Source of the DNA: an uncultured Myxococcales bacterium
GTDB lineage: Bacteria > Myxococcota_A > UBA9042
Assembly (NCBI GenBank): GCA_903842345.1
Contig: CAIMLR010000047.1
Location: forward strand, 310,001-374,000
Length of the DNA stretch: 64,000 nucleotides
Direction of reading: 5' to 3'
Of this stretch, positions 29,700-61,644 are shown piece after piece; positions within the stretch are counted from its first letter, which is position 1; each line of letters starts with the position of its first letter. The notes beneath the pieces were generated by a model that was given only the letters and a program-made list of their open reading frames with translations, was not told the origin of the DNA and did not search any database. The translations under genes and the position numbers were made by a program.

Positions 29700-29774
29700 G
29701 CGCGCATAACTCAGCGGTAGAGTATCACCTTCACACGGTGGGAGTCCTAGGTTCAAATCCTAGTGTGCGCACCA
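29700..29774 (+). tRNA. tRNA-Val (anticodon CAC)
   Basis: The cloverleaf folds fully. The acceptor GCGCGCA (29700-29706) pairs with TGTGCGC, the D arm is ACTC/GAGT, and the anticodon stem TCACC/GGTGG has loop TTCACAC, giving anticodon CAC. The T arm is CTAGG-TTCAAAT-CCTAG. CCA is encoded at 29772-29774. It is the apparent integration site of the island on its right, whose integrase gene points towards it. Confidence 0.95.
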
Positions 29775-29981: not shown

Positions 29982-31148
29982 CTATCCCAGCACCCTGCCC
30001 AGCGCCGCCGCCTTGTCCTCCATCGGGATGCTGGCGTAGCGCTCAGTCATCTTGATCGAAGAGTGGCCCATCAATTCCCGAATGGTTATGAGGTCAACGC
30101 CCTCGGAGACGAGGATCGTGTTCAACGACCGCCTCAACACTTGCGGTGTAACCCGCTGACCGACGCCGCGTGCGCCGCTGCAAATGCGGCACGGCTTGGC
30201 CAAAGACTGCTCGACGCGATAGGACTCGCCCTCGGACGGGAACACCAGCGCGCCCTTCCCGTCGTCCCACTGCGGCAGGTCTTTCTTGAGCTGCGCCGTG
30301 TGATGGGCCTTGAGGATCGCAACTAGCTTGGGAACCAGTGGCACCTCGCGCGGCGCGTCCGTCTTGGTGAGTTCCAGTTTGCCGTTCGTCGCGCTGAACT
30401 GCAGCTTGGCGCTCGGATGCGGCCCGTCCAGGCGCACGTCTTTCCAATGGAGGCCGAACGCCTCGCCGGACCGACACCCGGTGTAGGCGAGGAATGTCAG
30501 TTCAGCATGTCGCAGCGGCTGGTGGACCTGGACCGCCGTCAGGAAGGCTTCCAACTGCGGCCTCTTCAAAGTCTTGGTCTCGCGGACGCGGGGTGCCGTG
30601 ACCTTCGGGGCCGTCACGCGCGCGGTCGGGTCGTGCGGCAACCGGTAGCGAGCGACCGCGTCGCGCAGCATGTGCGTCATCGTGCGCCACCAGCCCATCA
30701 CCGTGTCCGGGCTGTATGGCTTGCCCGACTTCTGCTTGTGCCCTTCCGCCCACGCGACCCATTCCTCGACATCCTCCATGTTGACCTCATCAAGGCGCAG
30801 GCTGCCAAGGTCCCGTCCGGCGCGCACCAGGACCGGCAGGCAGTGTTCCTCCAGCCGATGCTTCATCTCAGAGATCACGCTCTCACGGTTGCGTTTCTTC
30901 TTCCGTGCCAGCCACGTGTCGCAGTAGTCGACCACGGTAGGGATTTCCGGCGGCAACGCCGGGTCGTTCGCTGCCAGCGACTCCTTCAGCTCGGCCACCA
31001 GCCGGATCGCGTCCCGCTCGCTCGCGCCCACCGGCAGCATTTGCCGCTTTTCCACCTTCGCCCCGTCGACCAGGCACGATACGCGGACGAACAGCCTGCC
31101 GTCGGGAGCCCGAAACACGTTGCTGTACTTTGTCTTCTTTCCTTTCAT
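29982..31148 (-). CDS. int: Tyrosine site-specific integrase of the island
   Basis: 388 residues. The N-terminal arm- and core-binding regions are followed by the catalytic domain: the first Arg in AYTGCRSGEAFGLHWKDV, then TPQVLRRSLNTILV, LMGHSSIKMTERYASI with the late His and the nucleophile Tyr. The usual HxxR box reads QVLR here, so the first histidine is replaced by Gln, an unusual but not unknown substitution. A CRIC cysteine pair lies before that box. The gene ends about 200 bases from tRNA-Val and reads towards it, as expected of an integrase adjoining its attachment site. The start at 31148 lies inside the upstream HTH frame. Confidence 0.88.
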   Translation of the reverse strand: MKGKKTKYSNVFRAPDGRLFVRVSCLVDGAKVEKRQMLPVGASERDAIRLVAELKESLAANDPALPPEIPTVVDYCDTWLARKKKRNRESVISEMKHRLEEHCLPVLVRAGRDLGSLRLDEVNMEDVEEWVAWAEGHKQKSGKPYSPDTVMGWWRTMTHMLRDAVARYRLPHDPTARVTAPKVTAPRVRETKTLKRPQLEAFLTAVQVHQPLRHAELTFLAYTGCRSGEAFGLHWKDVRLDGPHPSAKLQFSATNGKLELTKTDAPREVPLVPKLVAILKAHHTAQLKKDLPQWDDGKGALVFPSEGESYRVEQSLAKPCRICSGARGVGQRVTPQVLRRSLNTILVSEGVDLITIRELMGHSSIKMTERYASIPMEDKAAALGRVLG

Positions 31149-36695: not shown

Positions 36696-37421
36696 GTGAT
36701 TCGCCAATTGCCCATCGAACCCGTGCCTCTCGGCGCGATTATTGACACCGGTGGTGGGCTCGAACCCTTCTACCGAGTTCTCGGCGACTTGGGTCCGCTC
36801 AAGCAATCCATCCGCAAATACGGGTTGATGGTGCCCCCCACCGTCTGGAAATTGGATGGCGACGCCTCGCACGGTGCCGGCGCGCAGTACGCCATCATCG
36901 ACGGAGCGCGCCGAATCGCAGCGCTGCGGGAACTGAGAGCGGAAGCTGACGACCTATTGCAGTCACCGGCAACTGTGGCCTGCAGCGTGTGCGCAGCAGA
37001 CCTTGCGACAGCAAAAATCCTCAGTATTCACGCGCACGAGGAGCGCAAGCGGGCCAAGAAGGCACGCCCCGGCCACGTGGCCGAAGTGGTGCAGCGTTTG
37101 CTGGAAGAAGGAAAAAAGCAGCGGGAGATCGAGAAGTTGCTTCATATTTCTCAAGCGACGGTCTCGACGCTCAAGACGCTGTCGGACTGGTTGACCTCCG
37201 ACGCGATGCACGCGCTGCAATCTGGCGACATCACCATGAACGACGGACTGCGCCTTGTCGCGATCAGCAAAGAGCGACGCATCGCCAGCCCGGCCAACAA
37301 GATGTGCAGTAACCAAGAGATTGAACTGTTCCAGAACAAGCAGCTCGCCGCAGTCGTGGCGCACAATCGCAGCCGCACGTGGAAAAGCTCGCGCGAGAAC
37401 GGGAGAAAAGCGCGCGCCTAG
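36696..37421 (+). CDS. ParB-like nuclease-domain/partition protein
   Basis: 241 residues. The N-terminal ParB/Srx domain is visible: IRQLPIEPVPLGAI, LGPLKQSIRKYGLMVPPTVWKLD, and the box IIDGARRIAALREL, which corresponds to the GERRxxA motif of ParB. A helix-turn-helix follows (QREIEKLLHISQATVSTLKTLSDW). No ParA ATPase gene was recognised next to it. Solo ParB-like proteins in mobile elements act in maintenance or transcription control. The GTG start follows GGAGG. The 16-bp palindromes on this island are the right size to be its binding sites, which is an inference. Confidence 0.75.
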   Translation: MIRQLPIEPVPLGAIIDTGGGLEPFYRVLGDLGPLKQSIRKYGLMVPPTVWKLDGDASHGAGAQYAIIDGARRIAALRELRAEADDLLQSPATVACSVCAADLATAKILSIHAHEERKRAKKARPGHVAEVVQRLLEEGKKQREIEKLLHISQATVSTLKTLSDWLTSDAMHALQSGDITMNDGLRLVAISKERRIASPANKMCSNQEIELFQNKQLAAVVAHNRSRTWKSSRENGRKARA

Positions 37422-37658: not shown

Positions 37659-39074
37659 TTACCGTCGATAGCTCAGCCATTCCTGGTAGGGCGGTTGCAT
37701 CTGGAGGCGATTGGCGATTGCGGCATCCGGGACCCCTATCGCTTGCAGTAGCGCAGAATGCAGCGTCAGGCCAAAGTGCCCTGTCACTCTCACGATTTCC
37801 CGAAACGGGGGGACGGGCGACGTCGGGTCGCGGTGAATGAGCGCGTTTCGTGCGTCCACCATCTCGTCCACCACGCCTTGCCACTTACCGAATGCATCGC
37901 GAAGCGCCGGCGGCATGCCGCGCATGAGGTCTCGAGTCCGACGGCGCAACGACACCTGATTGCCGAACTCGACGCGCTTCTTGAGCGAGGTGCGTAAGCC
38001 GTCGACCCGCGTGAGGCCGTTTACCTGCCCTACGAGCCCTGATTGAACTTGGGCATAGTCGGCGTCGGGCACGAAGGTCTGCGGATGCGTGCTCGATCGA
38101 TGAAATGCCTCGAGCGCCTGAGCGACGATGCCGAGTTTTGCCTCCCAACTTAGGTCCCTGTCCCACGTGTCCACGAGGAGCTTTGCCGCCACCCGCAGCG
38201 AATCACGACGTCCCAGCCAGACCGCGAGGACGTTGGACAGGTCGGTCGGGTACGAACCGGCCGTGAGATCGTAAAAAAAGTCGCCGAAAGACTGCCGAGT
38301 TGCGGCATCCGACCGGACTGAGCCGACCAACGACGCTTCAAAATCGTGGTGGGCGTGACGGGGCTCCTGCAGATCGGGCGCGTGCTGTGACGCCAGTGCA
38401 GCTACGACGTCCGACCGGGTTCCAGTCAACAGGCTCCACAGCAGGGCGAGGTCGGTCCAGAACTGTTTGGCATCAACGAGACTGACCTGCGACGGGAACT
38501 CGACGATGACGTCAACCTGCGGCTTTACCGTTAGGTGGTTGCCAAGTCCGCCGAAGGATTGCTCCACGGGGGCGTACACAAAAACGTCGACACGGGTGCC
38601 CCCGTGTTCCGCGGACGCAAGGTGCCGGGACGTCTGAAAGTGATAGGTGAGGCGGGCGTTGCTTCCGCCCGGAGTCGTCGTCTTGTTTGATTCCCAGAGC
38701 TTGGATGGCACGAGGCGCTGCAGATTTGTGAACCGCAGAACTAGTCGGCGGAGTAGCGCGCTCGGACTCACGTGGTCGTCGAACAGGACCGCATCACACA
38801 CGATCGATTGACCGCGAAAGCCCGGCTCCGCGAATGTGTCAGCTCGGACGACGACGCAACCGATCAACGTGAGTTCGCCCTCGCGCGTCAGGCCGTGAAC
38901 GGACTCGGCCTTTTCAGGTCCGCCGTGTATCAAGACGTCAAATGTGTCCAGCACCGGCCAGTTCCCGGCCTTCAACCGCAAACGGCCCTGCGTGCGGCGC
39001 TCAGGCGTCCCGGGCAGGTAGAAAGTTCCGTCGAACGAGTGTTCCTCTGTCCAATCAATGAATTGTCCGGGCAT
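37659..39074 (-). CDS. ApeA-like HEPN-domain defence protein
   Basis: 471 residues. The N-terminal half resembles the ApeA N-terminal domain (for example FDGTFYLPG near the start, then VHGLTREGELTLIGCVV). The C-terminal HEPN domain carries the RNase motif R-N-x3-H as RNALIH (R409 to H414), with flanking helices. ApeA proteins are single-gene abortive-infection defences that act as RNases when triggered by phage. The ATG at 39074 lies 9 bases after AAGGAG; an ATG at 39083 is too close to it. It shares a minus-strand operon with the upstream gene at 39132. Confidence 0.7.
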   Translation of the reverse strand: MPGQFIDWTEEHSFDGTFYLPGTPERRTQGRLRLKAGNWPVLDTFDVLIHGGPEKAESVHGLTREGELTLIGCVVVRADTFAEPGFRGQSIVCDAVLFDDHVSPSALLRRLVLRFTNLQRLVPSKLWESNKTTTPGGSNARLTYHFQTSRHLASAEHGGTRVDVFVYAPVEQSFGGLGNHLTVKPQVDVIVEFPSQVSLVDAKQFWTDLALLWSLLTGTRSDVVAALASQHAPDLQEPRHAHHDFEASLVGSVRSDAATRQSFGDFFYDLTAGSYPTDLSNVLAVWLGRRDSLRVAAKLLVDTWDRDLSWEAKLGIVAQALEAFHRSSTHPQTFVPDADYAQVQSGLVGQVNGLTRVDGLRTSLKKRVEFGNQVSLRRRTRDLMRGMPPALRDAFGKWQGVVDEMVDARNALIHRDPTSPVPPFREIVRVTGHFGLTLHSALLQAIGVPDAAIANRLQMQPPYQEWLSYRR

Positions 39075-49414: not shown

Positions 49415-50505
49415 TGACGACGGACGCGGCGCGCGGCACTGGCGAGATCCTTATCTACGCGACTGAGGACGGGCGTACGCGCGTCGAGTGCCGCTTTGAC
49501 GGTGCGACCATCTGGCTGACGCAGGCGCTGATGGCGGACCTGTTCCAGACGACGCCGCAGAACATTACGCTGCACCTGCGTGCGCTTTTCGCGGATGGCG
49601 AAGTCGATGAGGCGGCAACCTGTAAGGAATACTTACAAGTTGCCCAGGAGGGCGCGCGCGAGGTCCGGCGCAGCGTCAAGCACTACAATCTCGATGCCAT
49701 TCTGGCAGTTGGCTACCGCGTGCGGTCTGTCCGCGGCATGCAGTTCCGCCGGTGGGCCACCGAGCACCTGCGCGAGTACCTGGTGAAGGGCTTCACCATG
49801 GACGACGAGCGGTTGCGCAACCCGCCCGTGCGCGGCCTGGGCGTGCCGGACTACTTCGACGAGCTGCTGGAGCGCATCCGCGACATCCGCGCCAGCGAGC
49901 GGCGGATGTACCTGCGCGTGCAGGAGATCTTCACGATGGCGGCGGACTACGGCGCGTCGGCACCTGACACGACCGAGTTCTTCAAGGTCATGCAGAATAA
50001 GTTGCACTTCGCGACGACCGGCAAGACCGCGGCGGAGCTCATCGCCGAACGCGCCGACCACACGCTGCCGAACATGGGGCTGACGAACTTCAAGGGCAGC
50101 ACGGTGCGCAAGGCCGACGTCGGCACCGCCAAGAACTACCTGCAGCAGGACGAGATCTCGGCGCTGAACCTCATCGTGGGCATGTGGCTGGACTTTGCTG
50201 ACGACCAGGCCCGCCGCCGCAAGCAGATCTTCCTGCGCGACTGGGAGACCAAGCTGGACGAGTTCCTGCGCTTCAACGAGCGTGGCGTCCTGCGCAACGC
50301 CGGCACCGTCAGCAACAAGGACGCCACGGCGAAGGCGGAGGCCGAGTACGCCGCATTCTCGGAGCAGCGCCGGACATGGCTTGAAGCACAAGGTGCTGAG
50401 CATGCCGTACACGCCCTGGAAGACGCGGCCAAGGCGCTACCCGCCCGTCGGGCTGCCAGTGTGGCGAAAGCGGGCAGCAAGCCCAAGGAAGGCCGTAAAC
50501 CGTGA
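49414..50505 (+). CDS. RhuM-family protein
   Basis: 363 residues. The N-terminal IWLTQALMADLFQTTPQNITLHLRALFADGEVDE and KHYNLDAILAVGYRVRSVRGMQFRRWATEHLREYLVKGF match the RhuM family, first noted on a Salmonella pathogenicity island and often found between mod and res genes. Its exact role is unknown. The start overlaps mod by one base and the end overlaps res (GTGA), so all three are translationally coupled. Confidence 0.85.
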   Translation: MTTDAARGTGEILIYATEDGRTRVECRFDGATIWLTQALMADLFQTTPQNITLHLRALFADGEVDEAATCKEYLQVAQEGAREVRRSVKHYNLDAILAVGYRVRSVRGMQFRRWATEHLREYLVKGFTMDDERLRNPPVRGLGVPDYFDELLERIRDIRASERRMYLRVQEIFTMAADYGASAPDTTEFFKVMQNKLHFATTGKTAAELIAERADHTLPNMGLTNFKGSTVRKADVGTAKNYLQQDEISALNLIVGMWLDFADDQARRRKQIFLRDWETKLDEFLRFNERGVLRNAGTVSNKDATAKAEAEYAAFSEQRRTWLEAQGAEHAVHALEDAAKALPARRAASVAKAGSKPKEGRKP

Positions 50506-53490
50506 AGCTGCACTTCGAAGCCGACCTCGACTACCAGCAGGCCGCCATCGCGTCTGTTGTCGACCTGTTCCGCGGGCAGGAGATTTGCCGCACCGAGTTC
50601 ACCGTCACGGCGCAGGCCGGTGTGCCGCTTCTCGAGGCCACGGGTGTCGCCGAAAACGTCATGGGCATCGGCAACCGGCTGCAGCTGCTGGACGACCAGA
50701 TCCGCGCCAACCTGCACGGCGTGCAACTGCGCAATGGCCTCGCGGCGTCCAGCAGCCTGGCGTCCGGCGACTTTACTGTCGAGATGGAGACCGGCACCGG
50801 CAAGACCTACGTCTACCTGCGCACCATCTTCGAGCTCAACCGCCAGTACGGCTTCACCAAGTTCGTCATCGTCGTGCCCAGCGTCGCCATCAAAGAGGGC
50901 GTGTACAAGACCCTTGAAATCACGCAGGACCACTTCCGCAGCCTGTACGCTGGCGTGCCGTTCGAGTTCTTCCTGTACGACTCCAGCAAGCTCGGCCAGG
51001 TGCGCAACTTCGCCAGCAGCCCGAACATCCAGGTCATGGTGATGACGGTCGGCGCCATCAACAAGAAGGAAGTCAACAACCTGTACAAGGACAGCGAGAA
51101 AATCAACGGCGAGAAGCCCATCGACCTGATTCGCTCCACCCTGCCCATCCTCATCGTCGACGAGCCGCAGAGCGTGGACGGCGGTTTGGAAGGTCGCGGC
51201 AAGGAAGCGCTGAGCGCGATTGGGGCCGCTGTGCACGCTGCGCTACTCGGCGACGCACGTGGCGAAGCACCACATGCTGTACCGCCTGGACGCGGTCGAC
51301 GCGTACGAGCATAAGCTGGTCAAGCAAATCGAAGTGGCGGCGCTGCAGGTCGAGGGCGGGCACAACAACGCGTACATCAAGCTCGTGTCGACCAGCAATA
51401 AGGGCGGCACGATCAGCGCGCGCCTGGAGCTGGACGTCCAGCAAGGCAAGGCTGTCAGCCGGCAGCTCGTGACGGTGGAGCAAGGGGACGATCTGGCGGA
51501 CCTCACGGGGCGCGCCGTCTACGACAACTGGCGCGTGGACGACATCAGCTGTCGCGCCGGAGACGAGCACGTCGAGCTGAGCAAGCACGAACATCCGCTG
51601 CGTGTGGGCGAGGTTGTCGGCGGCGCGGATGAGGACGAAATCAAGCGGCACATGATTCGCCGCACGATTCGCGAACACCTGGAGAAGGAACTGCGGCTGC
51701 GGCCACAGGGCATCAAGGTGCTGAGCCTGTTCTTCATCGACGCCGTCGCGAACTACCGCACCTACGACGCGGACGGCCAGCCGCAGAAGGGCAAGTTCGC
51801 CACGATGTTCGAGGCGGAGTATCGCAAGGCCGCGAAGGACAGTCGGTACAACGACTTGTTCAAGGGCGTGGACTTGAGCGCCGACGCTGCCGAGGTCCAC
51901 GACGGCTATTTCTCGATCGACAAGGCGGGCCATGTCAGCGACACGGCCGAGAACAACGAGGCGGGCCGGCAGAGCGCGGAGCGCGCCTACAACCTGATTA
52001 TGAAGGACAAAGAGAAGCTGCTGAGCATGGACACCAAGCTCAAGTTCATCTTCTCGCACTCGGCTCTTCGCGAGGGCTGGGACAATCCGAACGTCTTCCA
52101 GATCTGCGTGCTGCGCGACATCGGCACAGAGCTGCGCCGCAGACAGGTCATCGGCCGCGGCCTGCGCCTGTGCGTCAACCAGGCCGGCCAGCGCGTGCGC
52201 GGGTTCGATGTCAACACGCTCACAGTCGTGGCGCGCGAGAGCTACGAGGACTTCGCCAGGACGCTGCAGCACGAGATCGAGGAGAGCACCGGCATCCGCT
52301 TCGGCATCGTGGAGAAGCACCAGTTTGCCAACCTCCCGGTGGTCGGCGCCGACGGCACGACCGAGGCCCTGGGTGTGCAACAGTCCGAGTCGCTGTGGTA
52401 CCACCTCCGCGACACCGACCTCATCGACGGCCACGGCAAGGTGCAGGACAAGCTGCGCACGGCGCTCAAGGACGGCACGCTGGAGCTGCCAGAAGCCGTT
52501 GCGCCGCATGCCGCGGCCATCAAGGAACTGCTGCGCAAGCTCGCGGGGCGCCTGGACGTGAAGAACTCGGACGACCGCAAGCCCATCAAGACGCGGCGCG
52601 CCGTGCTGGACAGCGCCGAGTTCCAGGCGCTGTGGGACCGCATCAAGCACAAGACGACGTACCGCGTCGAGTTCGACAACGAGAAGCTCATCGCCGACTG
52701 CGCCAAGAAGTTGCAGGCGGCGCCGGACGTGACGCGGACGAAGCTGCACATGCGCAAGGCCGACATCGCGATCGGTCGCGGCGGCGTGGTGGCAAATGCG
52801 GTGGCGTTGAACGGCGAAGAGCACATCAACATGAACGCGGAGGCCGTCGACCTGCCGGACCTGCTGACCGAGCTGCAGGACAAGACCCAGCTCACGCGAC
52901 GCAGCCTGGTGCGCATCTTGACGGGCTGTCGACGGCTGGAGGACTTCAAGCGCAACCCGCAGCAGTTCATCGAGATCGCGGTGACGACCATCGTGCTTGC
53001 CAAACGGCACGCCCTAGTGGACGGCATCAAGTACCAGCGCATCGGTGAAGACGCCTACTACGCGCAGGAGTTGTTCGAGCAGCCGGAGCTCGCCGGCTAC
53101 CTGAAGCGCAACATCTTGGAGAACACCAAGAAGTCCGTGTACGAGGACGTCGTCTACGACTCGGCTGGCGTGGAGAAGTCGTTCGCGGAGCAGTTGGAGA
53201 GCAACGTTGCCGTCAAGGTGTACGCGAAGCTGCCGTCGTGGTTCCAGGTGCCGACGCCGCTGGGGACGTACAACCCGGACTGGGCGGTGCTGGTGCAGCA
53301 GGACGGCGGCGAGCGGCTGTACTTCGTCGTGGAGACGAAGGGCACGTTGTTCGCGGATGAGCTGCGGAAGGCCGAGGGCGCGAAGATCGAGTGCGGCAAG
53401 GCGCACTTCGCGGCGCTGGCGCAGGGGCATGATGCTGTGCGGTACATGCAGGCGACGAAGCTGGAGGATGTGTTGGCGGAGGTCGAGTGA
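50502..53490 (+). pseudogene. Type III restriction enzyme Res subunit, interrupted by a one-base frameshift
   Basis: The full product would be about 995 residues. The 5' part has Walker A METGTGKT (95-102) and Walker B IVDEPQSV (D220-E221). At the G run 51222-51225 (GGGG) the frame breaks. With one G fewer, translation continues through GPLCTLRYSATH into the remainder, which carries the helicase C-terminal motifs (ALREGWDNPNVFQICVLRDIG, RQVIGRGLRLCV) and the endonuclease site (NPDWAVL...FVVETKGT). The second frame is intact to the stop at 53490. So Res is either inactivated, subject to slippage, or the extra G is a sequencing error. Without it the system would methylate but not cut. Confidence 0.85.
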
Positions 53491-53632
53491 GCCGTCTGCG
53501 GTCCGGCAGGCTCGTCGACTGCGCGAATCGTGCGCGTCGGCGTCCGAAAGCCGGTCCATGTTGGCAAAAAAGCGACCGACCCGCTTCTTGACCTTGACCG
53601 CACTTCATGTTTATGTGAAGTTGTCGGCCACG

Positions 53633-54094
53633 ATGGCTGACGAACTGACATTCGAGATGCGCAAGGGGTCCCAAGTGACCATTGCTGCGTACGTCATGCC
53701 TGATAAGACAGTGCCAGTCCGGGACCTGATCAGGGATTGGGCGACGAGCCCGCACAAGCCGGAGAAGACCGCTGCACGTCACTACACGACGTCGTTCACG
53801 AAGCGCGCCGACGGCCAAAAACTGCTCGGCGAGGAGTTTCACGGTTTCAATGACGGAACAGAACTCGTCGAGTTCAAGCACCGCGGAACGAAAACACGGT
53901 TGCTCGGGTTCATGGACGGGAAAGTTCTCGTTGTGCACTACATCGTGTTCGGAAAAAAAGAAGATGAAATCGACCCAGGCGAGGTGGACCGCGCGGTGAA
54001 GCGCAGGAAAGAGTACTTTGACCGGAAGGCCGGTCCGCCCGGGACGGCAGGTCCGCATCTGAAGAGCGCAGGCAAACAAGGAGGTCGTCGATGA
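53633..54094 (+). CDS. higB: HigB/RelE-like toxin of a TAC system
   Basis: About 153 residues from ATG 53633; an ATG at 53558 is also in frame and would add 25 residues. The middle part (ELVEFKHRGTKTRLLGFMDGKVLVVHYIVFGKKEDEI) has the beta-strand pattern of RelE/HigB-type mRNA interferases (Gp49-like). It precedes an XRE-type antitoxin, which it overlaps by 4 bases (ATGA), and a SecB-like chaperone, the usual toxin-antitoxin-chaperone order. Function as a ribosome-dependent RNase is inferred from the family. Confidence 0.7.
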   Translation: MADELTFEMRKGSQVTIAAYVMPDKTVPVRDLIRDWATSPHKPEKTAARHYTTSFTKRADGQKLLGEEFHGFNDGTELVEFKHRGTKTRLLGFMDGKVLVVHYIVFGKKEDEIDPGEVDRAVKRRKEYFDRKAGPPGTAGPHLKSAGKQGGRR

Positions 54095-54582
54095 TGGAAA
54101 AGACGGAGAAACGGAACGATTGGCTGGAAGAACTTTGGGCTTCCGATCCGGAACTCGCTGACTTCGGTGAGGAAGAGGATTACGGGTACGCGTTCATTCG
54201 CAAGGTCTCCGAAGAACTCGAACGGCGTGGACTGCGCCGTTCCGATTTGGCCACCAAGATGGGGCGCAGTCCGTCTTTTGTCACCCAGGTCATGGCGTCG
54301 GGGCGGAACCTGACGGTGAAGACCATGGTCCGGCTCGTTCGGGCGTTGGACGGCAAGTTGGTTCTTGAAGCGGAGTTCCCGGTCGCTCAGCTCCAGGCCC
54401 CCGCCCAAGTCCAGATCGTCCAACATGAAGCTGGGGCTTGGTACGTGAGATCCACTTTGTCTCACGGGTCGGACATGGCGGACACCGCCATAGGTCGATC
54501 CATGCGCCCGTCGACGTACGGACTCATGGATCGGCCTATGGCGGGACAAGATCAGGACGCCGACGAGTACGTCAGCTGCTAG
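54091..54582 (+). CDS. higA: HigA-like XRE-family antitoxin
   Basis: 163 residues. A classical helix-turn-helix is at about residues 45-90 (ELERRGLRRSDLATKMGRSPSFVTQVMASGRNLTVKTMVRLVRAL). The long C-terminal extension of about 65 residues could be the chaperone-addiction region through which SecB-like proteins control antitoxin stability; that is inferred. Overlap with the toxin gene shows coupled translation. It should bind the toxin and repress the operon. Confidence 0.8.
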   Translation: MMEKTEKRNDWLEELWASDPELADFGEEEDYGYAFIRKVSEELERRGLRRSDLATKMGRSPSFVTQVMASGRNLTVKTMVRLVRALDGKLVLEAEFPVAQLQAPAQVQIVQHEAGAWYVRSTLSHGSDMADTAIGRSMRPSTYGLMDRPMAGQDQDADEYVSC

Positions 54583-55307: not shown

Positions 55308-56099
55308 ATGGACTTCCGGAACAGGAACACCAAGTCGTTCTCTGCGTTCTGCCGCGACCTGGGCACACCGTTGAACAACGTCAACTGGTCATGGAGCGCG
55401 CGCAACCCAGATTTGAAGCGTGCCGTGTTCACCATCTGGGCAGATCGGGTCGTCGACGGCGCCATAGTGCTGTGGGAGCCTGACAGTCCCCGCGCGACGC
55501 GCAACGGCGGCAAGGAGCTGAAGGCGATCGCGGACGAGGCTGTCGCAGGAGGCTACGAAGCGTTCGGTATTCTGTGCTACGTGGTCGACGCCAATGCCAG
55601 CCCACGTGTTCGCGGGTACTACGCGGATGACGTGCTGCTCGTGTTGCGCCTGACTTCGACCGCCGACCAAGTTGTGGCCCACATCGTTGGCGAAGTGTCG
55701 AGCAATGTGGCGCCCGGGCAGACACGGGCTCAGACGGTGCCGATGATGCGCGCACTGGACGACATCAGCGAGCCTCCGCTCGGCAACGCCGTCCCGGAGC
55801 GCATTGTGCAGCTTGGCAGCGGCTACCGGCGCGATGCGCGGGTGCGTGCGTACATCGTCCAACAGGCCAATGGGCGCTGCGAGTACTGCACCGAGCACGG
55901 CTTCACCCTACCGGATGGGCGGCGATACCTTGAAGCACATCACATCCTGGCGCTTTCGGCGTGGGGGCCGGACACGGTGGACAACGTCGTCGCGCTCTGT
56001 GCGAACCACCACCGTGAGGCGCATTTTGGGGGCAACGCTCTGCAGCTAAATGAAAAGCTCGCGACGCTCCCCGCGCGACGCCTTGGAGCCGCGCAGTGA
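55308..56099 (+). CDS. HNH endonuclease
   Basis: 263 residues. The C-terminal 80 residues form an HNH domain: NGRCEYCTEHG, then EAHHILALSAWGPDTVDNVVALCANHHREAHFG, which has the two CxxC pairs for zinc and the His-Asn-His catalytic residues. The N-terminal 180 residues form an unrecognised domain starting MDFRNRNTKSFSAF, perhaps a sensor. The ATG at 55308 follows AGGAG. The stop overlaps the GTG start of the following HEPN gene, so the two form a pair. Confidence 0.8.
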   Translation: MDFRNRNTKSFSAFCRDLGTPLNNVNWSWSARNPDLKRAVFTIWADRVVDGAIVLWEPDSPRATRNGGKELKAIADEAVAGGYEAFGILCYVVDANASPRVRGYYADDVLLVLRLTSTADQVVAHIVGEVSSNVAPGQTRAQTVPMMRALDDISEPPLGNAVPERIVQLGSGYRRDARVRAYIVQQANGRCEYCTEHGFTLPDGRRYLEAHHILALSAWGPDTVDNVVALCANHHREAHFGGNALQLNEKLATLPARRLGAAQ

Positions 56100-57505
56100 C
56101 GAACAAGGGCTCCGAGTTGCGGGCAACCATGGACACGCTGTTCTCAGAAAGCCAGCTCGCGCTCACTGCGCTCGATGCCGGCGATGCGCGCGCAGGCCTT
56201 CACGTCGTCAAGCCGTTGATTGAGGCGCTCGGACTGGTGAAGCAGGTCGAGAAGAAACAATTCGGCGACTCTCCGCCAGTGGTGCTGGCGCGGCAACTCC
56301 TGGAAAGACTCGGCGACTTGCATTGGCCGTTTGTCGTGCGCCTCGTGGACGCGCTCCGGGAAAAGCGCCTCACTGACTTCGCGATCCTGGCGGCGGTCAC
56401 AATGCAGCGCGCTCAGCTCGAGTCGAACGGCAACGACCACGACGGTACGCAGGCGCTCTACGAGGTGGCACGCCGGTGCTATGCGGCCGGGTTGGATGAC
56501 GAAGGCGCACGCCGTGCACAGGATGCTGCGGCGGACGCGCTCGTCGCGAAAGCCGAGTGGTTGGACCGGGCGTCGACGGGACCGAGCCTGCTTGCCATAT
56601 CGGCATACGCAGATGCGCTGAAGGCGCTCCGGATGTGCCGCGGGCGCCAAGATCTGCGGCAGCGTGTGCACCGCCGGCTGCTGGAACTTCAGGTTGATGT
56701 ACCGCGGTTCATGGGACGAGTCGAAGTGCCCTTCGACCTATCGAGGATTGCCAGCATGGTGCGCGACAAGCTCAAGAACTTGTCCCGACCGGACGCGATT
56801 GTGTGGCTTGCCGCAGAAGCCGCGTCGCTCGTGTCGCGGGACGGCCTCGAATCCACCGACGCTGGTGGCGTCTCCGGGCTTTTCGCCAACATCCCGACGG
56901 CCTGGTCCGCGAACGACGGCAGGACTGTCGCGACCACCAGCGGCACTGACGACGATGCGGTGTCCCAACTCGCGTTGACGCGGCTCTTGGTCAGCGGCGG
57001 AATCCTGGGCGCGGCCCTCGCGGTGTATCGCGAGCGCTTTGCCGACGAGACCGCAACGGCCGGCCTTCTGCCAGAGCCATGCGAACTGGTGCAGCCGGTG
57101 CGGCTTCAGAGCGTGGGCACCGCGGCAGTAGCCGGGCTTGAAGGAAACTGGGAGGTCGCGATGCCGCTGCTGTTCCCGCAGGTCGAGCACATCTTCCGCA
57201 CCATCCTGAGCAAGTCTGTCACGTTGTCGGACGAAAATCCGGATTTCCAGCGCTTTCCCGACCTCGGAGCGATGCTCAAGAAGTACGAGAAAGAGCTTGC
57301 TCAGGCGATTGGGGAGCGAGACGCCTTTGCATGGCGAATGCTGTGCGCGACCGCTGGTGGCGACAGACGCAACCGCGTGCTGCACGGGCTGGATGATGAC
57401 GCAAACCTTGGCGGTCCGCACGACCACGTTGTTTGGTGGCTCTTTCTGCGTTTGACGCTCTTCGGCGGTGACCCGCGCCGACAGACGGAACCCCCGCCTA
57501 CGTGA
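56096..57505 (+). CDS. HEPN-domain protein, DUF4209-like
   Basis: 469 residues. The C-terminus carries R-N-x3-H as RNRVLHGL (R425 to H430), followed by HDHVVWWLFLRLTLF, similar to the LRN-x2-HG region of DUF4209 proteins. The rest is alpha-helical with no known enzyme motif. HEPN domains are usually RNases activated in stress or infection. It starts with GTG overlapping the HNH gene, so the pair may form a two-component nuclease defence. Confidence 0.65.
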   Translation: MTNKGSELRATMDTLFSESQLALTALDAGDARAGLHVVKPLIEALGLVKQVEKKQFGDSPPVVLARQLLERLGDLHWPFVVRLVDALREKRLTDFAILAAVTMQRAQLESNGNDHDGTQALYEVARRCYAAGLDDEGARRAQDAAADALVAKAEWLDRASTGPSLLAISAYADALKALRMCRGRQDLRQRVHRRLLELQVDVPRFMGRVEVPFDLSRIASMVRDKLKNLSRPDAIVWLAAEAASLVSRDGLESTDAGGVSGLFANIPTAWSANDGRTVATTSGTDDDAVSQLALTRLLVSGGILGAALAVYRERFADETATAGLLPEPCELVQPVRLQSVGTAAVAGLEGNWEVAMPLLFPQVEHIFRTILSKSVTLSDENPDFQRFPDLGAMLKKYEKELAQAIGERDAFAWRMLCATAGGDRRNRVLHGLDDDANLGGPHDHVVWWLFLRLTLFGGDPRRQTEPPPT

Positions 57506-57643: not shown

Positions 57644-57793
57644 TAAACAGATCGAGAGCCTCGCGCCGCCACCACGGATGAATTGGCGGCCTTCTGCAAA
57701 AACGAGGGCAGTTCTTGGGATAAGAGCCGTGTGCCGGTGGAGTTCGCCGTCACGTAGTGCCCATTTCGTCCCATTTTCAGGAGCTTCTACACC

Positions 57794-58003
57794 ATGCAGA
57801 TCAAAATCCTCCGCCTCGGTCACTCCGCCCGCCATCACGAAGCCGCTGCCGGCGCCACCGTCGGTGAAGTCCTCGACGCCGTCGACCTGCCTGCCGCCGG
57901 CCACGCCATCTCGGTCAACGGCCTCGGCGCCAGCACGACCACCGGCCTCAGCGACGGTGACGTCGTCACGCTGGTCCCCAAGGTCGAGGGCGGCAGCAAG
58001 TAG
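57794..58003 (+). CDS. Ubiquitin-like modifier (beta-grasp, GG-SK end)
   Basis: 69 residues with the beta-grasp pattern of ThiS/MoaD/ubiquitin-like proteins: an opening MQIKILRLG strand, a helix with TVGEVLDAVDL, an AISVNGLGAS strand and a DGDVVTLVPKVEGGSK end. The Gly66-Gly67 pair is followed by Ser-Lys, so the modifier would need trimming to expose GG, and a JAMM peptidase is encoded two genes on. The ATG is preceded by CAGGAG. It is the first gene of the ubiquitin-like operon. ThiS or MoaD itself is unlikely, because no thiamine or molybdopterin gene is nearby. Confidence 0.8.
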   Translation: MQIKILRLGHSARHHEAAAGATVGEVLDAVDLPAAGHAISVNGLGASTTTGLSDGDVVTLVPKVEGGSK

Positions 58004-58082: not shown

Positions 58083-59099
58083 ATGCACCATTGTGACCAA
58101 ACCATGGCCGCGTACCTGCTCGACTGGCAGGCAAAGCTCGGCCTGGACATCCGCTACCAGCGCTGGAGTGCGCGCTACACGGACCCGGCGGCGTTTCGCC
58201 GCGAGATTGAACTGCTCGGCCCAATCGCGGGTACGGCAGACGAGTGCCGGCTGCCGTACAAGGACGGCGTCCAGACGGTCAACGTCGTGCACGGCCGGCC
58301 GCACACGGGCGAGCCGGTGGAGTTGGGTATCGACGGCGAGACGTTTGTCGTCGCGTCCGTTGAAGGGCGCCGTGTGCGCTTGGCGTTCGATCTGGAGCGC
58401 CTGTTTGAAGTGCCGGGCGAGATCCAGCCGGGCCTCATCTTGGAAGCCGTACTCGGCGCGGCGCTGCCTCTCGCGGCGACGTACATTCAGGGCTACGACT
58501 GGCAGCGCGAGAAGGCGGAGTTCTCATCGTGGATGGTGTCGTCGGTCGACGGCATGGTCCGCAACTGGAAGAACGCCATCCGCGACAACGAGTACGAAGC
58601 CAACCGGCTCACCAGCCAGATCTCCGGTCTGGTACGCAAGAACGGCGAGTTGCGCGAGCAGATTGTGGCGCTTGAAGCCACGACCCGCCCGGCGCAGGAA
58701 GTCAAAGCCGCGGAAGAGTTCGCGGCGCTGGTCAAGATGATGCCGTCACCGGTCGTCAGCGTCGAAGTCGACTACGGCAAGCTGAGCATCGTGCTCGAGC
58801 CGCTCACCTTGGAGCACGACAGCACCGACTACGCGATGGGCTCGTACACGCTGACGGTGACGGCCGACAAGGTGCACATCTGGTCGGACGGCGGCTTCAG
58901 CTACCCGCATCCGCACGTCAGCAGTGACGGCGTTCCGTGCTGGGGCAACCTCGGGCCGGGCATCGGCAAGCTGCTGGGCGAGGGCCAGTACGCGGCGTTG
59001 GTCAGTGTCATCATCGAGTTCCTGCACAGCTACAACGAGCGCGACGCCTACCGTCACATCGAGACCTGGTCTGAGGACTACAACAGCGACGACGATTAA
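58083..59099 (+). CDS. E2-like ubiquitin-conjugating protein with long N-terminal extension
   Basis: 338 residues. The C-terminal part has a UBC-type active site: HPHVSSDGVPCWGNL (H276, C286), matching the HPN-x4-5-G-x-C-L pattern of E2 enzymes with Cys286 as the thioester residue. It is followed by a helix like that after E2 cysteines (QYAALVSVIIEFLHSYNERDA). The first 210 residues are not recognised. They include a predicted coiled coil (about 150-210: WKNAIRDNEYEANRLTSQISG), so the E2 may be tethered to a target. A normal E2 is about 150-170 residues. The ATG at 58083 follows GGGGAG. Confidence 0.7.
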   Translation: MHHCDQTMAAYLLDWQAKLGLDIRYQRWSARYTDPAAFRREIELLGPIAGTADECRLPYKDGVQTVNVVHGRPHTGEPVELGIDGETFVVASVEGRRVRLAFDLERLFEVPGEIQPGLILEAVLGAALPLAATYIQGYDWQREKAEFSSWMVSSVDGMVRNWKNAIRDNEYEANRLTSQISGLVRKNGELREQIVALEATTRPAQEVKAAEEFAALVKMMPSPVVSVEVDYGKLSIVLEPLTLEHDSTDYAMGSYTLTVTADKVHIWSDGGFSYPHPHVSSDGVPCWGNLGPGIGKLLGEGQYAALVSVIIEFLHSYNERDAYRHIETWSEDYNSDDD

Positions 59100-59179: not shown

Positions 59180-59779
59180 ATGAAAGTGAAACAGAACCTG
59201 CGGGTTCGCATCGACGCAGACGCGATGGAGCGCATCTGGCACTGGACCGATTTGGCGGCCGGCGAGTTCTCCTGCCTGGGCACGGTCACGGACGACGTGC
59301 TCGTCGGCAACGTGCAGCTGTTCGACCAGATCTGCACGGCCGCCAGCACGGAGCTGGACCAGGAGGCGCTGGCGAAGTTTCTGGTCACCCACCCGGCGCC
59401 GCAGAACGTGCGGGCATGGTGCCATTCGCATGCACGTCTTGGAGTTTTTTGGTCGCAGCAGGACGAGGCGTGCATCGAGGGCCTGGCGAACGACCAGTGC
59501 CTCGTCAGCATCGTCGTCAACAAGAAGCGCGAGTTCAAGGCGCGGATCGACGTGTGGCAGCCGTTCCGGCTGACGTTCGACGACCTGCCGCTGGAGATCC
59601 GCCTTCCGGACCAGAACCTGCGCGGCGAGTGCGAACGGCTGTTCAACGCGCACGTGGTGGAGATGCAGCCGGTACTGATGCCGGACTGGCGCGGCGGTGT
59701 TCGGCAGCCGCAGCAACAGGGTCAACCGTATCGGGGCGGTTGGCAGGACTTTGACGACGACCTTGCGGACTGGAGGTAG
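59180..59779 (+). CDS. JAB/JAMM-family isopeptidase (deubiquitinase-like)
   Basis: 199 residues. The JAMM zinc site is complete: Glu29 in AAGEFSCLG, then H82-S-H84-x7-S92-x2-D95 in CHSHARLGVFWSQQDEA. Such metalloproteases trim ubiquitin-like precursors or remove them from targets. The C-terminal 50 residues are Gln/Gly/Asp-rich. ATG 59180 follows GGAGG. The gene sits directly before the E1, with 2 bases between. Processing of the GG-SK modifier is the likely job. Confidence 0.85.
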   Translation: MKVKQNLRVRIDADAMERIWHWTDLAAGEFSCLGTVTDDVLVGNVQLFDQICTAASTELDQEALAKFLVTHPAPQNVRAWCHSHARLGVFWSQQDEACIEGLANDQCLVSIVVNKKREFKARIDVWQPFRLTFDDLPLEIRLPDQNLRGECERLFNAHVVEMQPVLMPDWRGGVRQPQQQGQPYRGGWQDFDDDLADWR

Positions 59780-59781
59780 CG

Positions 59782-60405
59782 ATGAACTTTCACAGACAGC
59801 TTGACGTACTGGACGTGCCGCGGCTCGCGCGGACGCCCATCACGGTCATTGGCGCGGGCGCGGTGGGCAGCTTCACCGTGCTGGCGTTGGCGAAGTGCGG
59901 CGCCACCGACATCACGGTCTGGGACGACGACAGCGTCGAGAGCCACAACCTGCCGAACCAGTGGTACCGCCTCACGGACCTAGGGCGGCCAAAGGTGCAG
60001 GCATTGAAGGCGTTGGTGCTGGAGATGACGGGCGTGGACATCAAGGTCGCGCAGGAACGCTTCCAGGGCGACGGCGCGACTGAGGTGACGATCTGCTGCG
60101 TCGACAGCATGGACATCCGGATTGCGCTTTGGGGGCAACTTCATCCACGGCCAACGCTCTACGTTGACGCGCGGATGGGAGCTGAGGTCGGCAAGGTCAT
60201 GTGCGTGGGCGCGTTTGGAAGCTGGTATGAAGAAACGCTGCACCCCAGCTCTGAGGCTCACCGCGCACCCTGCACGGCGCGGGCGACCATGTATTGCGCC
60301 AGCGGCCTCGCAGCCTTCATCGCCGGCCAAGTGGCGAACTACGCCAGCGACCGGCCCACCCGGGAAGAGATGACCGTGGATTTTCACAACGGAATCATTC
60401 TCTAA
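59782..60405 (+). CDS. E1-like activating enzyme (ThiF/UBA family), short form
   Basis: 207 residues. The Rossmann motif TVIGAGAVGS (G24-x-G26-x2-G29) binds ATP. DDDSVESHNLPNQWYRLTDLGRPK has the Asp/Arg/Lys pattern of E1 adenylation sites. TICCVDSMDIRIAL carries the later conserved Asp, and YVDARMGAEVG follows. Candidate thioester cysteines are C164 (APCTARATMYC) and C172. It lacks a separate catalytic-cysteine or ubiquitin-fold domain, so it is a minimal E1. It should adenylate the GG end of the modifier and pass it on to the E2-like protein. Confidence 0.85.
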   Translation: MNFHRQLDVLDVPRLARTPITVIGAGAVGSFTVLALAKCGATDITVWDDDSVESHNLPNQWYRLTDLGRPKVQALKALVLEMTGVDIKVAQERFQGDGATEVTICCVDSMDIRIALWGQLHPRPTLYVDARMGAEVGKVMCVGAFGSWYEETLHPSSEAHRAPCTARATMYCASGLAAFIAGQVANYASDRPTREEMTVDFHNGIIL

Positions 60406-60564: not shown

Positions 60565-60963
60565 ATGAAACCTTTAATAAAGGCGTCGGGTGACGTACTG
60601 GACGCGCTGACGGCGGGTCTGGACGTTGGCGGTGCGCGCAAGATCGACAACGGCGGCTACATGGCGGTGCATGTGGACCGGCTGAGCCTCGCGACCTTCA
60701 GCGTGGCCCACTACTTCCAGCAGAACGGCGACCAGGTGTGCGACCCGGACGGCGTGTTCCTGAGGACCGCCGCGGGCTGGCTGCCGGTGACGCTGCAGCT
60801 CAGCACGGGACATTACACGGTCGCCGTCGAACTGGACGGCGACGACAAGCCCACTGCTTGGCGTCCGCGGCAATACCGCGAGCTGCAAGCGTTTGCCGCG
60901 ATGTGGCTGCGCAACATCCGCGAGCAGCAAGGCGGCATCGCTAGGATTCTGACGAGCAAGTGA
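60565..60963 (+). CDS. DUF6908-like mobile-element protein
   Basis: 132 residues. The segments YMAVHVDRLSLATFSVAHYFQQNGDQVCDPDGVFL and PRQYRELQAFAAMWLRNIREQQGG resemble the DUF6908 family, known from integrative elements and plasmids with no assigned role. It is close to the recombination genes that follow. The ATG at 60565 follows GAGGAG. Confidence 0.6.
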   Translation: MKPLIKASGDVLDALTAGLDVGGARKIDNGGYMAVHVDRLSLATFSVAHYFQQNGDQVCDPDGVFLRTAAGWLPVTLQLSTGHYTVAVELDGDDKPTAWRPRQYRELQAFAAMWLRNIREQQGGIARILTSK

Positions 60964-61029: not shown

Positions 61030-61644
61030 ATGGACAACGACAAGATGCGGCTGCTGACGCGGCCGTTCAACGACATCAAGACGCGCCCCGGGCGCAACGG
61101 CCAGAGCATCAACTACGTGGAGGCGCACAGCATCGTGCAGCGCCTCAATGACGCGCTGGCGGGCGACTGGAGCTTCCGCGTGCTGGAGCGCGAGCTCCTC
61201 GACGGTGAGGTCATCGTGCTGGGCGAGCTGCGCGCGGGCGACGTGGTCAAGCAGGCGTTTGGCGGTTCGGAAGTGACCAAGACCCGCGACGGCAAGATCG
61301 TCAGCTTGGCCGATGACCTGAAGAGCGCCGCGACGGACGCGCTCAAGAAGGCGGCGACGCTGATGGGCGTGGCGCTGCAGCTGTACGGCGTGGAAGAGCC
61401 CGTGACGCCCAGCGTGCCTCGTTTGGTGCCGCCGGTGCAGGACGGCGACGAGCCGGATGTGCCGCCAAACAACCGCCTGACGCGCAAGCAAGCCGAGTTC
61501 ATCGCCCGGTTGGCGCGTGAACGCGGCATGGCGAAAGGCGAGGTGGACGCGCTGGCGCGTGAGCGGCACGGCACCGCGGCCAACTTCTTGAGCGTCAAAC
61601 AGGCGTCCGAGTTCATCAAACAGCTGCGGCAAGACGCGGCGTAA
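61030..61644 (+). CDS. Rad52/DdrA-family single-strand annealing protein
   Basis: 204 residues. The N-terminal region, from INYVEAHSIVQRLNDALAGDWSFRV through LADDLKSAATDALKKAATLMGVALQLYG, is the Rad52/Rad22 core found in phage recombinases and bacterial DdrA. The C-terminal 70 residues are a helical tail (RLTRKQAEFIARLARERG). It anneals single-stranded DNA during strand invasion-free recombination. The neighbouring nuclease is the likely resecting partner. ATG 61030 follows GGAGGTG. Confidence 0.8.
   Translation: MDNDKMRLLTRPFNDIKTRPGRNGQSINYVEAHSIVQRLNDALAGDWSFRVLERELLDGEVIVLGELRAGDVVKQAFGGSEVTKTRDGKIVSLADDLKSAATDALKKAATLMGVALQLYGVEEPVTPSVPRLVPPVQDGDEPDVPPNNRLTRKQAEFIARLARERGMAKGEVDALARERHGTAANFLSVKQASEFIKQLRQDAA

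Follow-up and report, generated by a model that had tools for sequence, protein, structure and literature searches.

What does a ubiquitin-conjugating-like (E2-like) protein do in an uncultured Myxococcales bacterium, and with which partners would it work? The question is raised by a gene at 58083-59099 of the 64,000-nucleotide stretch of DNA analysed here (the window), which a first-pass annotation, made from the letters of the sequence, had singled out for its long N-terminal extension. That annotation overlooked the neighbouring genes for a ubiquitin-like protein (UBL), a JAB/JAMM metalloprotease and an E1, and the main point is that these genes form a cassette carried on mobile elements and in phages. 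The window E2 very probably belongs to a complete UBL-E2-JAB-E1 conjugation cassette on an integrative element, with a chemistry that we infer from its components. The genes, their order, the relationships of the proteins, the catalytic residues, the purifying selection and the carriage by mobile elements and phages were all established by computation.

Reading frame and conservation of the E2 gene

The gene starts with ATG, just downstream of a purine-rich ribosome site of the GGGGAG type, and the alignments of its relatives begin at residue 1 of the window protein. A longer open reading frame of 473 aa, opening at 57678, was considered as the true E2 start and rejected, because the UBL gene sits there in another frame and the relatives align from 58083. 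Twenty full-length copies (residue 1 or 2 to 338, window copy included) were identified, none with an internal stop (0/20); the other places of match were cut by contig ends, partial or distant. Across the four cassette genes dN/dS was 0.07-0.24 in 16 comparisons, and for the E2 alone 0.07-0.10 in four. Frame, start, relatives and purifying selection agree with the initial reading of this frame as an E2-like protein of 338 residues.

The catalytic core has an E2-like fold

The UBC-like motif had been placed only in the last 65 residues; instead, the E2 domain covers about residues 200-334. Its signature runs H276-P-H278-V-x3-G283-x-P285-C286-x-G288, and Y274, H276-P-H278, G283, P285-C286 and G288 are kept in relatives down to 23% identity. 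In an alignment of 45 E2 cores, 35 of them from viral contigs, the only invariant residues are C286, G253 and G288, followed by the near-invariant P277 (44/45), H278 (42/45, as His and not Asn) and H276 (41/45).

A PDB search with the 45-sequence core profile returned 86 sequences at E-values up to 10 (best 0.018); among the 60 matches listed, 56 are named ubiquitin-conjugating enzymes. Taken one at a time, these sequence matches to known E2s are weak. In UBE2L3 the profile cysteine was aligned to the cysteine of HPNIDEKGQVCL, which carries the HPN...CL motif. The AlphaFold2 model of the core (pLDDT 88.3, pTM 0.81) consists of a helix (6-22), four strands (28-34, 37-49, 52-63 and 68-72), a loop bearing the cysteine and two helices (92-103 and 107-118), which matches the layout of the UBC fold. 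Foldseek ranked E2 entries at positions 1-42 (best E-value 1.2e-3, probability 1.00, none under 1e-3), and all 50 rows returned by VIA-align were E2s, with Z-scores of 7.3-8.2, values of about 7-8 being 'middling' on the tool's own scale, over 111-123 residues at 14-21% identity. The model of the full-length protein was weak on Foldseek, the core built with 45 sequences being clearer, and a profile of the whole E2 drew only coiled-coil noise from the PDB.

Family models were of little use: Pfam UQ_con matched 4/45 E2 relatives (best E-value 0.013), neither the window E2 nor the JAB was recognised by any Pfam, PHROG, NCBIfam or PADLOC model, and tblastn of the window E2 against plasmids and phages gave no match, the first viral scan being likewise empty. 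Each of the fold figures is moderate when taken singly; jointly they leave little room for another fold, and on profiles and models the identification of the product as an E2 is supported. C286, which the first-pass annotation had proposed as the active-site cysteine, lies within the E2-like fold of the model, not away from it, and aligns on the catalytic cysteine of UBE2L3.

Partner proteins and gene order

The four genes share a strand and are separated by 79, 80 and 2 bases (Table 1). Their order is conserved in distant loci of Myxococcota and Deltaproteobacteria, namely in G124, a genome belonging to a different family within the phylum, and in L063, L064 and L065.

Table 1 Features of the cassette, its carrier element and related E2 genes; positions are those of the window unless a locus is named
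Feature	Position	Strand	Remarks
tRNA-Val(CAC), element attachment site	29700-29774	+	attL repeat from 29727
Tyrosine integrase of the element	29982-31148	-	adjoins tRNA-Val
Ubiquitin-like protein (UBL; beta-grasp, SAMP2/MoaD/ThiS-like)	57794-58003	+	69 aa; C-terminus VEGG then SK
E2-like conjugating enzyme gene	58083-59099	+	338 aa
Predicted E2 catalytic core, residues 200-334	58680-59084	+	HPH 276-278, catalytic Cys 286
JAB/JAMM metalloprotease	59180-59779	+	199 aa; E29, H82-S-H84, S92, D95
Minimal E1, single ThiF domain	59782-60405	+	207 aa; C164-T165
DUF6908 protein	60565-60963	+	adjoins cassette in some copies
Rad52/22-like annealing protein	61030-61644	+	3' of cassette
PD-(D/E)XK nuclease, phage exonuclease-like	61657-62439	+	
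E2 relatives with Cys-rich tail	L063:5617-7056, L064:5692-7002, L065, L066, L067, L068		

The UBL profile matched archaeal SAMP2 (5.6e-6) and MoaD (4e-4), as well as SAMP1, with alignments reaching up to the final GG. This pair is invariant in 12/12 UBL relatives; after it come 0-4 residues that vary (SK, AR, AHHA, R, N, M, C or none), much as ubiquitin precursors bear residues after their GG. The best profile match of the JAB is an Rpn11-like protein (2.7e-8). The full JAMM set is invariant in 11/11 JABs, and HxH-SxxD is present in all 50 viral ones. The E1 is closest to ubiquitin-type E1s (UBA7, 8e-15, by profile) and its C164-T165 pair is invariant in 10/10 E1s; among 64 E1s, the CT motif is missing from the searched part in 12, the strict G[AG]GxxG[ST] motif is missing in 11, and CxxC zinc pairs were found in none.

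The N-terminal extension and C-terminal tails

Ahead of the core lie 199 residues, in line with the 200-residue extension first described. In the full-length AlphaFold2 model (15 sequences; mean pLDDT 74.2, pTM 0.46), an alpha/beta region (about 8-100) is followed by helices at 104-109 and 116-136, by a 60-residue helix at 140-199 and by the E2-like part from 202; the VIA list for this model covers mainly residues 199-332. A heptad pattern, whose second half has mostly hydrophobic a and d positions, supports a coiled coil in the extension, one having been suggested at about residues 150-210. Selection on the extension is purifying, as it is on the core (dN/dS 0.05-0.14 in both halves of the extension, 0.07-0.15 in the core).

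Of the 29 motif-bearing viral E2s, 28 have 65-421 residues ahead of the core, and the remaining one has 12 when counted from its first Met. An extension is thus the norm in this E2 family, at variable length. Within the cassette, no gene could be recognised as an E3. Together, these two observations fit the view that the extension may recruit a target or stand in for an E3.

A Cys-rich C-terminal tail of about 90-170 residues, absent from the window protein, was observed on six bacterial E2 relatives (Table 1), and a similar one on the E2 of a Xanthomonas phage (L161). As a guess, such a tail could serve as an E3-like part.

Comparison with known ubiquitin-like systems

The closest parallel in gene content is Bil (BilABCD), in which UBL, E2, JAB and E1 are four separate genes as in the window cassette. 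According to the available part of a review (PMC11354881), the C-E-H-H motif of BilB places Glu at +6, His at +8 and His at +13 after the Cys, BilD contains two adenylation domains (inactive and active) plus a Cys domain, and BilA has two UBL domains. The window E2 has 292 P, 294 I and 299 G at the BilB positions, so that C-E-H-H is absent; its family carries HPH ahead of the Cys and, over 45 sequences, no conserved His after it, unlike BilB. The window E1, in contrast to BilD, has one ThiF domain in 207 aa, and the UBL, in contrast to BilA, is single with 69 aa, tandem UBLs occurring in some viral relatives only. Another difference from Bil is that cassettes of the window type also occur in phages.

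The predicted type 6d operon of Iyer and colleagues (2006) likewise brings together Ub-like, JAB, E1-like and E2-like genes. In the available part of that description (PMC1779556), the E2 of type 6d has a His after the Cys but not the classical one ahead of it, its JAB carries an additional alpha+beta domain at the N-terminus, and the operon includes an alpha-helical protein. The window family, on the contrary, keeps the His before the Cys and has none conserved after it, and neither the post-Cys His nor the extra JAB domain nor the alpha-helical protein was seen in the window cassette. That the JAB has no such domain follows from its length of 199 aa and from its profile, which matches Rpn11-like proteins from position 5-6.

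The ThiF protein of the plasmid-borne PRTRC systems is related to the cassette E1 (hhalign 1.1e-13), but the window E1 scores 37.1 bits against TIGR03736 (PRTRC ThiF), below the cut-off of 144.75. Prok-E2_D, the PRTRC protein B type, weakly matched 2/45 E2 relatives (best E-value 0.033) and left the window E2 unmatched. E2, UBL and JAB profiles showed no significant similarity to one Alteromonas PRTRC locus (protein B being compared with the E2), and in the comparison with this one locus PRTRC shares only the E1 with the cassette. No ParB-related gene lies beside the cassette. Searches with Pfam Prok-E2_D and Prok-E2_B in 140 genomes of the phylum each returned zero matches, but the controls were silent too, so that this result carries no weight.

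With eukaryotic E2s (UBE2L3/UBE2D) the window protein has in common the E2 fold and the H-P-x...C spacing, and differs in HPH for HPN, in C-[WL]-G after the Cys and in the long N-terminal extension. An archaeal likeness is seen in the JAB, nearest to an Rpn11-like protein, and in the UBL, nearest to SAMP2. Membership in Bil, Iyer 6d or PRTRC was considered and ruled out by the E2 motif, by the architecture of E1, JAB and UBL, and by the TIGR03736 score. Given these differences, and with only the E1 shared with the PRTRC locus compared, the cassette is distinct within the known kind of UBL-conjugation systems.

Viral contigs and cultured phages

A scan of IMG/VR gave 50 loci with an E1 alignment and five with an E2 core, hence 55 viral contigs, and in most of them E2, JAB and UBL genes adjoin the E1. 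Gene orders were counted with profiles built from bacterial loci only (5688 ORFs, E<0.01); second-round profiles, being circular, were left out of the totals. The complete order UBL-E2-JAB-E1 was found in 22/55 loci (once with a second E2), E2-JAB-E1 in 10, JAB-E1 in seven, E2-JAB-E1-UBL in four, and the remaining 12 showed other patterns. Matches to phage hallmarks were obtained in 17 different contigs of the 55: Terminase_6N in 12 of the 28 contigs tried (eight above the curated cut-off), portal in 4/50 (three above cut-off) and Gp23 in 1/50. Many viral contigs are without a hallmark match. Among 33 viral UBL matches, 21 have GG near the end and 12 have none within the last ~12 residues.

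Tandem UBLs follow the E1 in two viral loci, two copies in L156 (6973-7431; split after GG) and three in L159 (7366-8040; ending GN), an arrangement that we liken to small polyubiquitins. Directly 3' of the E1, a Clp-type AAA+ unfoldase gene was observed in L107 (5947-8463) and L108 (6245-8773); besides two Walker A motifs and an IGF tripeptide, its product has a CxxC...CxxC segment near the N-terminus. These two contigs, of 178 and 152 kb, are close relatives and both contain portal genes. In an E1 tree of 65 rows, from which the near copies L138 and L150 were omitted, bacterial E1s stand among viral ones, although the position of the root and several of the forks are uncertain.

Cultured phages bear diverged versions of the cassette. 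Among 50,697 phage records, 75 matched the E1 by tblastn. Xanthomonas phage PhiXhv-12 (228 kb) encodes a UBL-like protein ending in SGG, an E2 of 892 aa with HPHM...CLG and an E1, placed between DNA ligase and topoisomerase genes, and no JAB was found near its E1 and E2. Flavobacterium phage FpV4 and two gut phages (one of them crAss-like, 'tikkala') have JAB and E1 genes with two genes upstream in matching places, the second of which bears YMHSH...C-x-G; in the Flavobacterium and crAss-like phages the UBL and E2 candidates fell below significance with the cassette profiles. The viral cassettes seem to have stayed unannotated so far, and the presence of cassette E1s in phages explains why such genes are annotated as 'thiamine biosynthesis protein'.

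The integrative element and bacterial copies

In the window genome the cassette rides an integrated element, about 57 kb long, whose attachment site is a tRNA-Val gene. The 3' part of this gene is repeated 57,021 bases on (57/57, then 80/84 identical bases), the second attachment repeat standing at position 86748, counted on from the window start and thus beyond the window. A relative's contig (L031) has three matches to the same attachment site and a cassette copy. At about 25 kb from two further copies (C42 and C7) lie integrase genes together with genes for tRNA-Gly or tRNA-Thr; for C42 no second attachment repeat was found and for C7 only a 17-base match, so repeat-bounded ends are known for the window element alone.

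DNA likeness among the copies is confined to the cassette (57.77-60.4 kb) or to a seven-gene block (57.77-62.44 kb), with the exception of short matches on contigs L027 and L031. The window genome has four copies, and of 89 genomes searched, 12 have at least one; by profile, the cassette E2 was detected in 13/377 genomes of the phylum. The named relatives, from 26 loci, belong to uncultured Myxococcales and Deltaproteobacteria, which points to a Myxococcales bacterium as the most probable host.

Genes for Rad52-like, DUF6908 and PD-(D/E)XK proteins lie downstream of many copies. Among loci reaching at least 1.3 kb past the E1, shorter contigs being excluded, the Rad52-like gene is present 3' of the E1 in 14/23 and absent in 9/23, and a scan of neighbours revealed no single constant partner of the cassette.

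Proposed mechanism and alternatives

From established knowledge of E1, E2 and JAMM enzymes, a working scheme can be drawn for the cassette. The JAB would trim the SK tail of the UBL, exposing Gly-Gly; the small E1 would then adenylate the UBL and hold it on C164, from where it could be handed on, in thioester linkage, to C286; the E2 would then transfer it onto target proteins. The extension, with its alpha/beta domain and long helix, may recruit the target or dimerise, in place of an E3, and the JAB may also take the tag off its targets. The conjugating activity, the order of the steps and the targets are what we infer from sequence. Since Rad52, exonuclease, primase, ligase and topoisomerase genes occur as neighbours, our best guess at the targets, a speculative one, is DNA replication or recombination proteins of the element or the host. 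Other neighbours point to defence and, in two phages, to unfolding.

Bil, CBASS conjugation and similar bacterial ubiquitin-like pathways are known to act against phages. By analogy, the cassette might be a Bil-like defence in which, upon phage infection, conjugation of the UBL to structural proteins of the phage disrupts assembly; we regard this as possible, if doubtful. Its gene set and four roles are those of BilABCD, at least in the available part of the review (PMC11354881), the genes upstream match defence models (HNH mREase_IV, 9.8e-23; PDC-S39, 1.1e-32), an ApeA-like HEPN gene shares the element, and the four copies per genome, whose surroundings differ, resemble cargo. However, a purely antiviral system would not be expected inside phages, where the cassette occurs both in the 17 hallmark-bearing contigs and in cultured isolates; the CEHH motif of BilB is missing, the E1 is single-domain, and PADLOC matched neither E2 nor JAB. 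The marking of proteins for unfolding and proteolysis by AAA+ machines, a counterpart in bacteria and phages of ubiquitin-dependent degradation, seems unlikely. The Clp-type gene directly after the E1 in L107 and L108, with its two Walker A motifs and IGF tripeptide, would suit such a role, but it accompanies only 2/55 viral cassettes, from closely related contigs; no Clp gene was noticed next to the window cassette, and the window genome yielded no gene of a proteasome family. The defence and degradation readings overlap, both with each other and with a target in DNA metabolism.

It is very unlikely that the cassette makes a cofactor, with a dead or structural RWD-like protein in place of an active E2 and a UBL acting as a ThiS/MoaD-like sulphur carrier. 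The UBL profile does match MoaD and ThiS, and some kinetochore RWD domains match the full-length E2 model as well as E2s do. Yet RWD domains are without the E2 Cys (PMC1779556), whereas this Cys is present in 45/45 E2 cores, the HPH being nearly as constant. A JAB conserved in the cassettes and tandem UBLs in viral relatives also argue against a cofactor role, and no thiamin or molybdopterin genes were seen beside the cassette.

Returning to the conjugation cassette, we consider it plausible, though at somewhat below an even chance, that it represents an unrecognised family with its own E2 (HPH...C-[WL]-G), widespread among tailed phages, large and crAss-like phages included, used by viruses on host or viral proteins, sometimes coupled to Clp, and taken up by bacterial elements from the viral pool. 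We found no description of phage-borne UBL-E2-JAB-E1 cassettes in the open-access literature searched, which is weak evidence of novelty; the available parts of a jumbo-phage paper (PMC7824862) and of the Borg paper (PMC12660748) describe no such cassette. If true, a whole pathway in phages and mobile elements would reverse the usual question, as phages may tag proteins themselves. The cassette is a compact four-gene set that could be rebuilt in the laboratory, its E2 with a built-in extension could show how conjugation may work free of an E3, and it would offer new material on the origin of ubiquitin signalling.

Other genes of the element

Annotation is poor in the right part of the element. 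Directly upstream of the UBL gene, at 55308-57505, lie the HNH gene, which matches models of type IV restriction, and the PDC-S39 candidate defence gene mentioned above. The ApeA-like HEPN protein is encoded at 37662-39074 on the minus strand (HEPN_Apea 6e-12, ApeA_NTD1 1e-9). A type III restriction-like helicase at 50502-53490 is split over two overlapping frames and looks broken; by eye, a RhuM-like gene precedes it, and RelE-like and XRE-like genes at 53558-54582 form a possible toxin-antitoxin pair. The product of 36696-37421 resembles ParB by eye, Pfam giving no ParB match, and has a relative at 40% on L027, a contig that bears another copy of the cassette.
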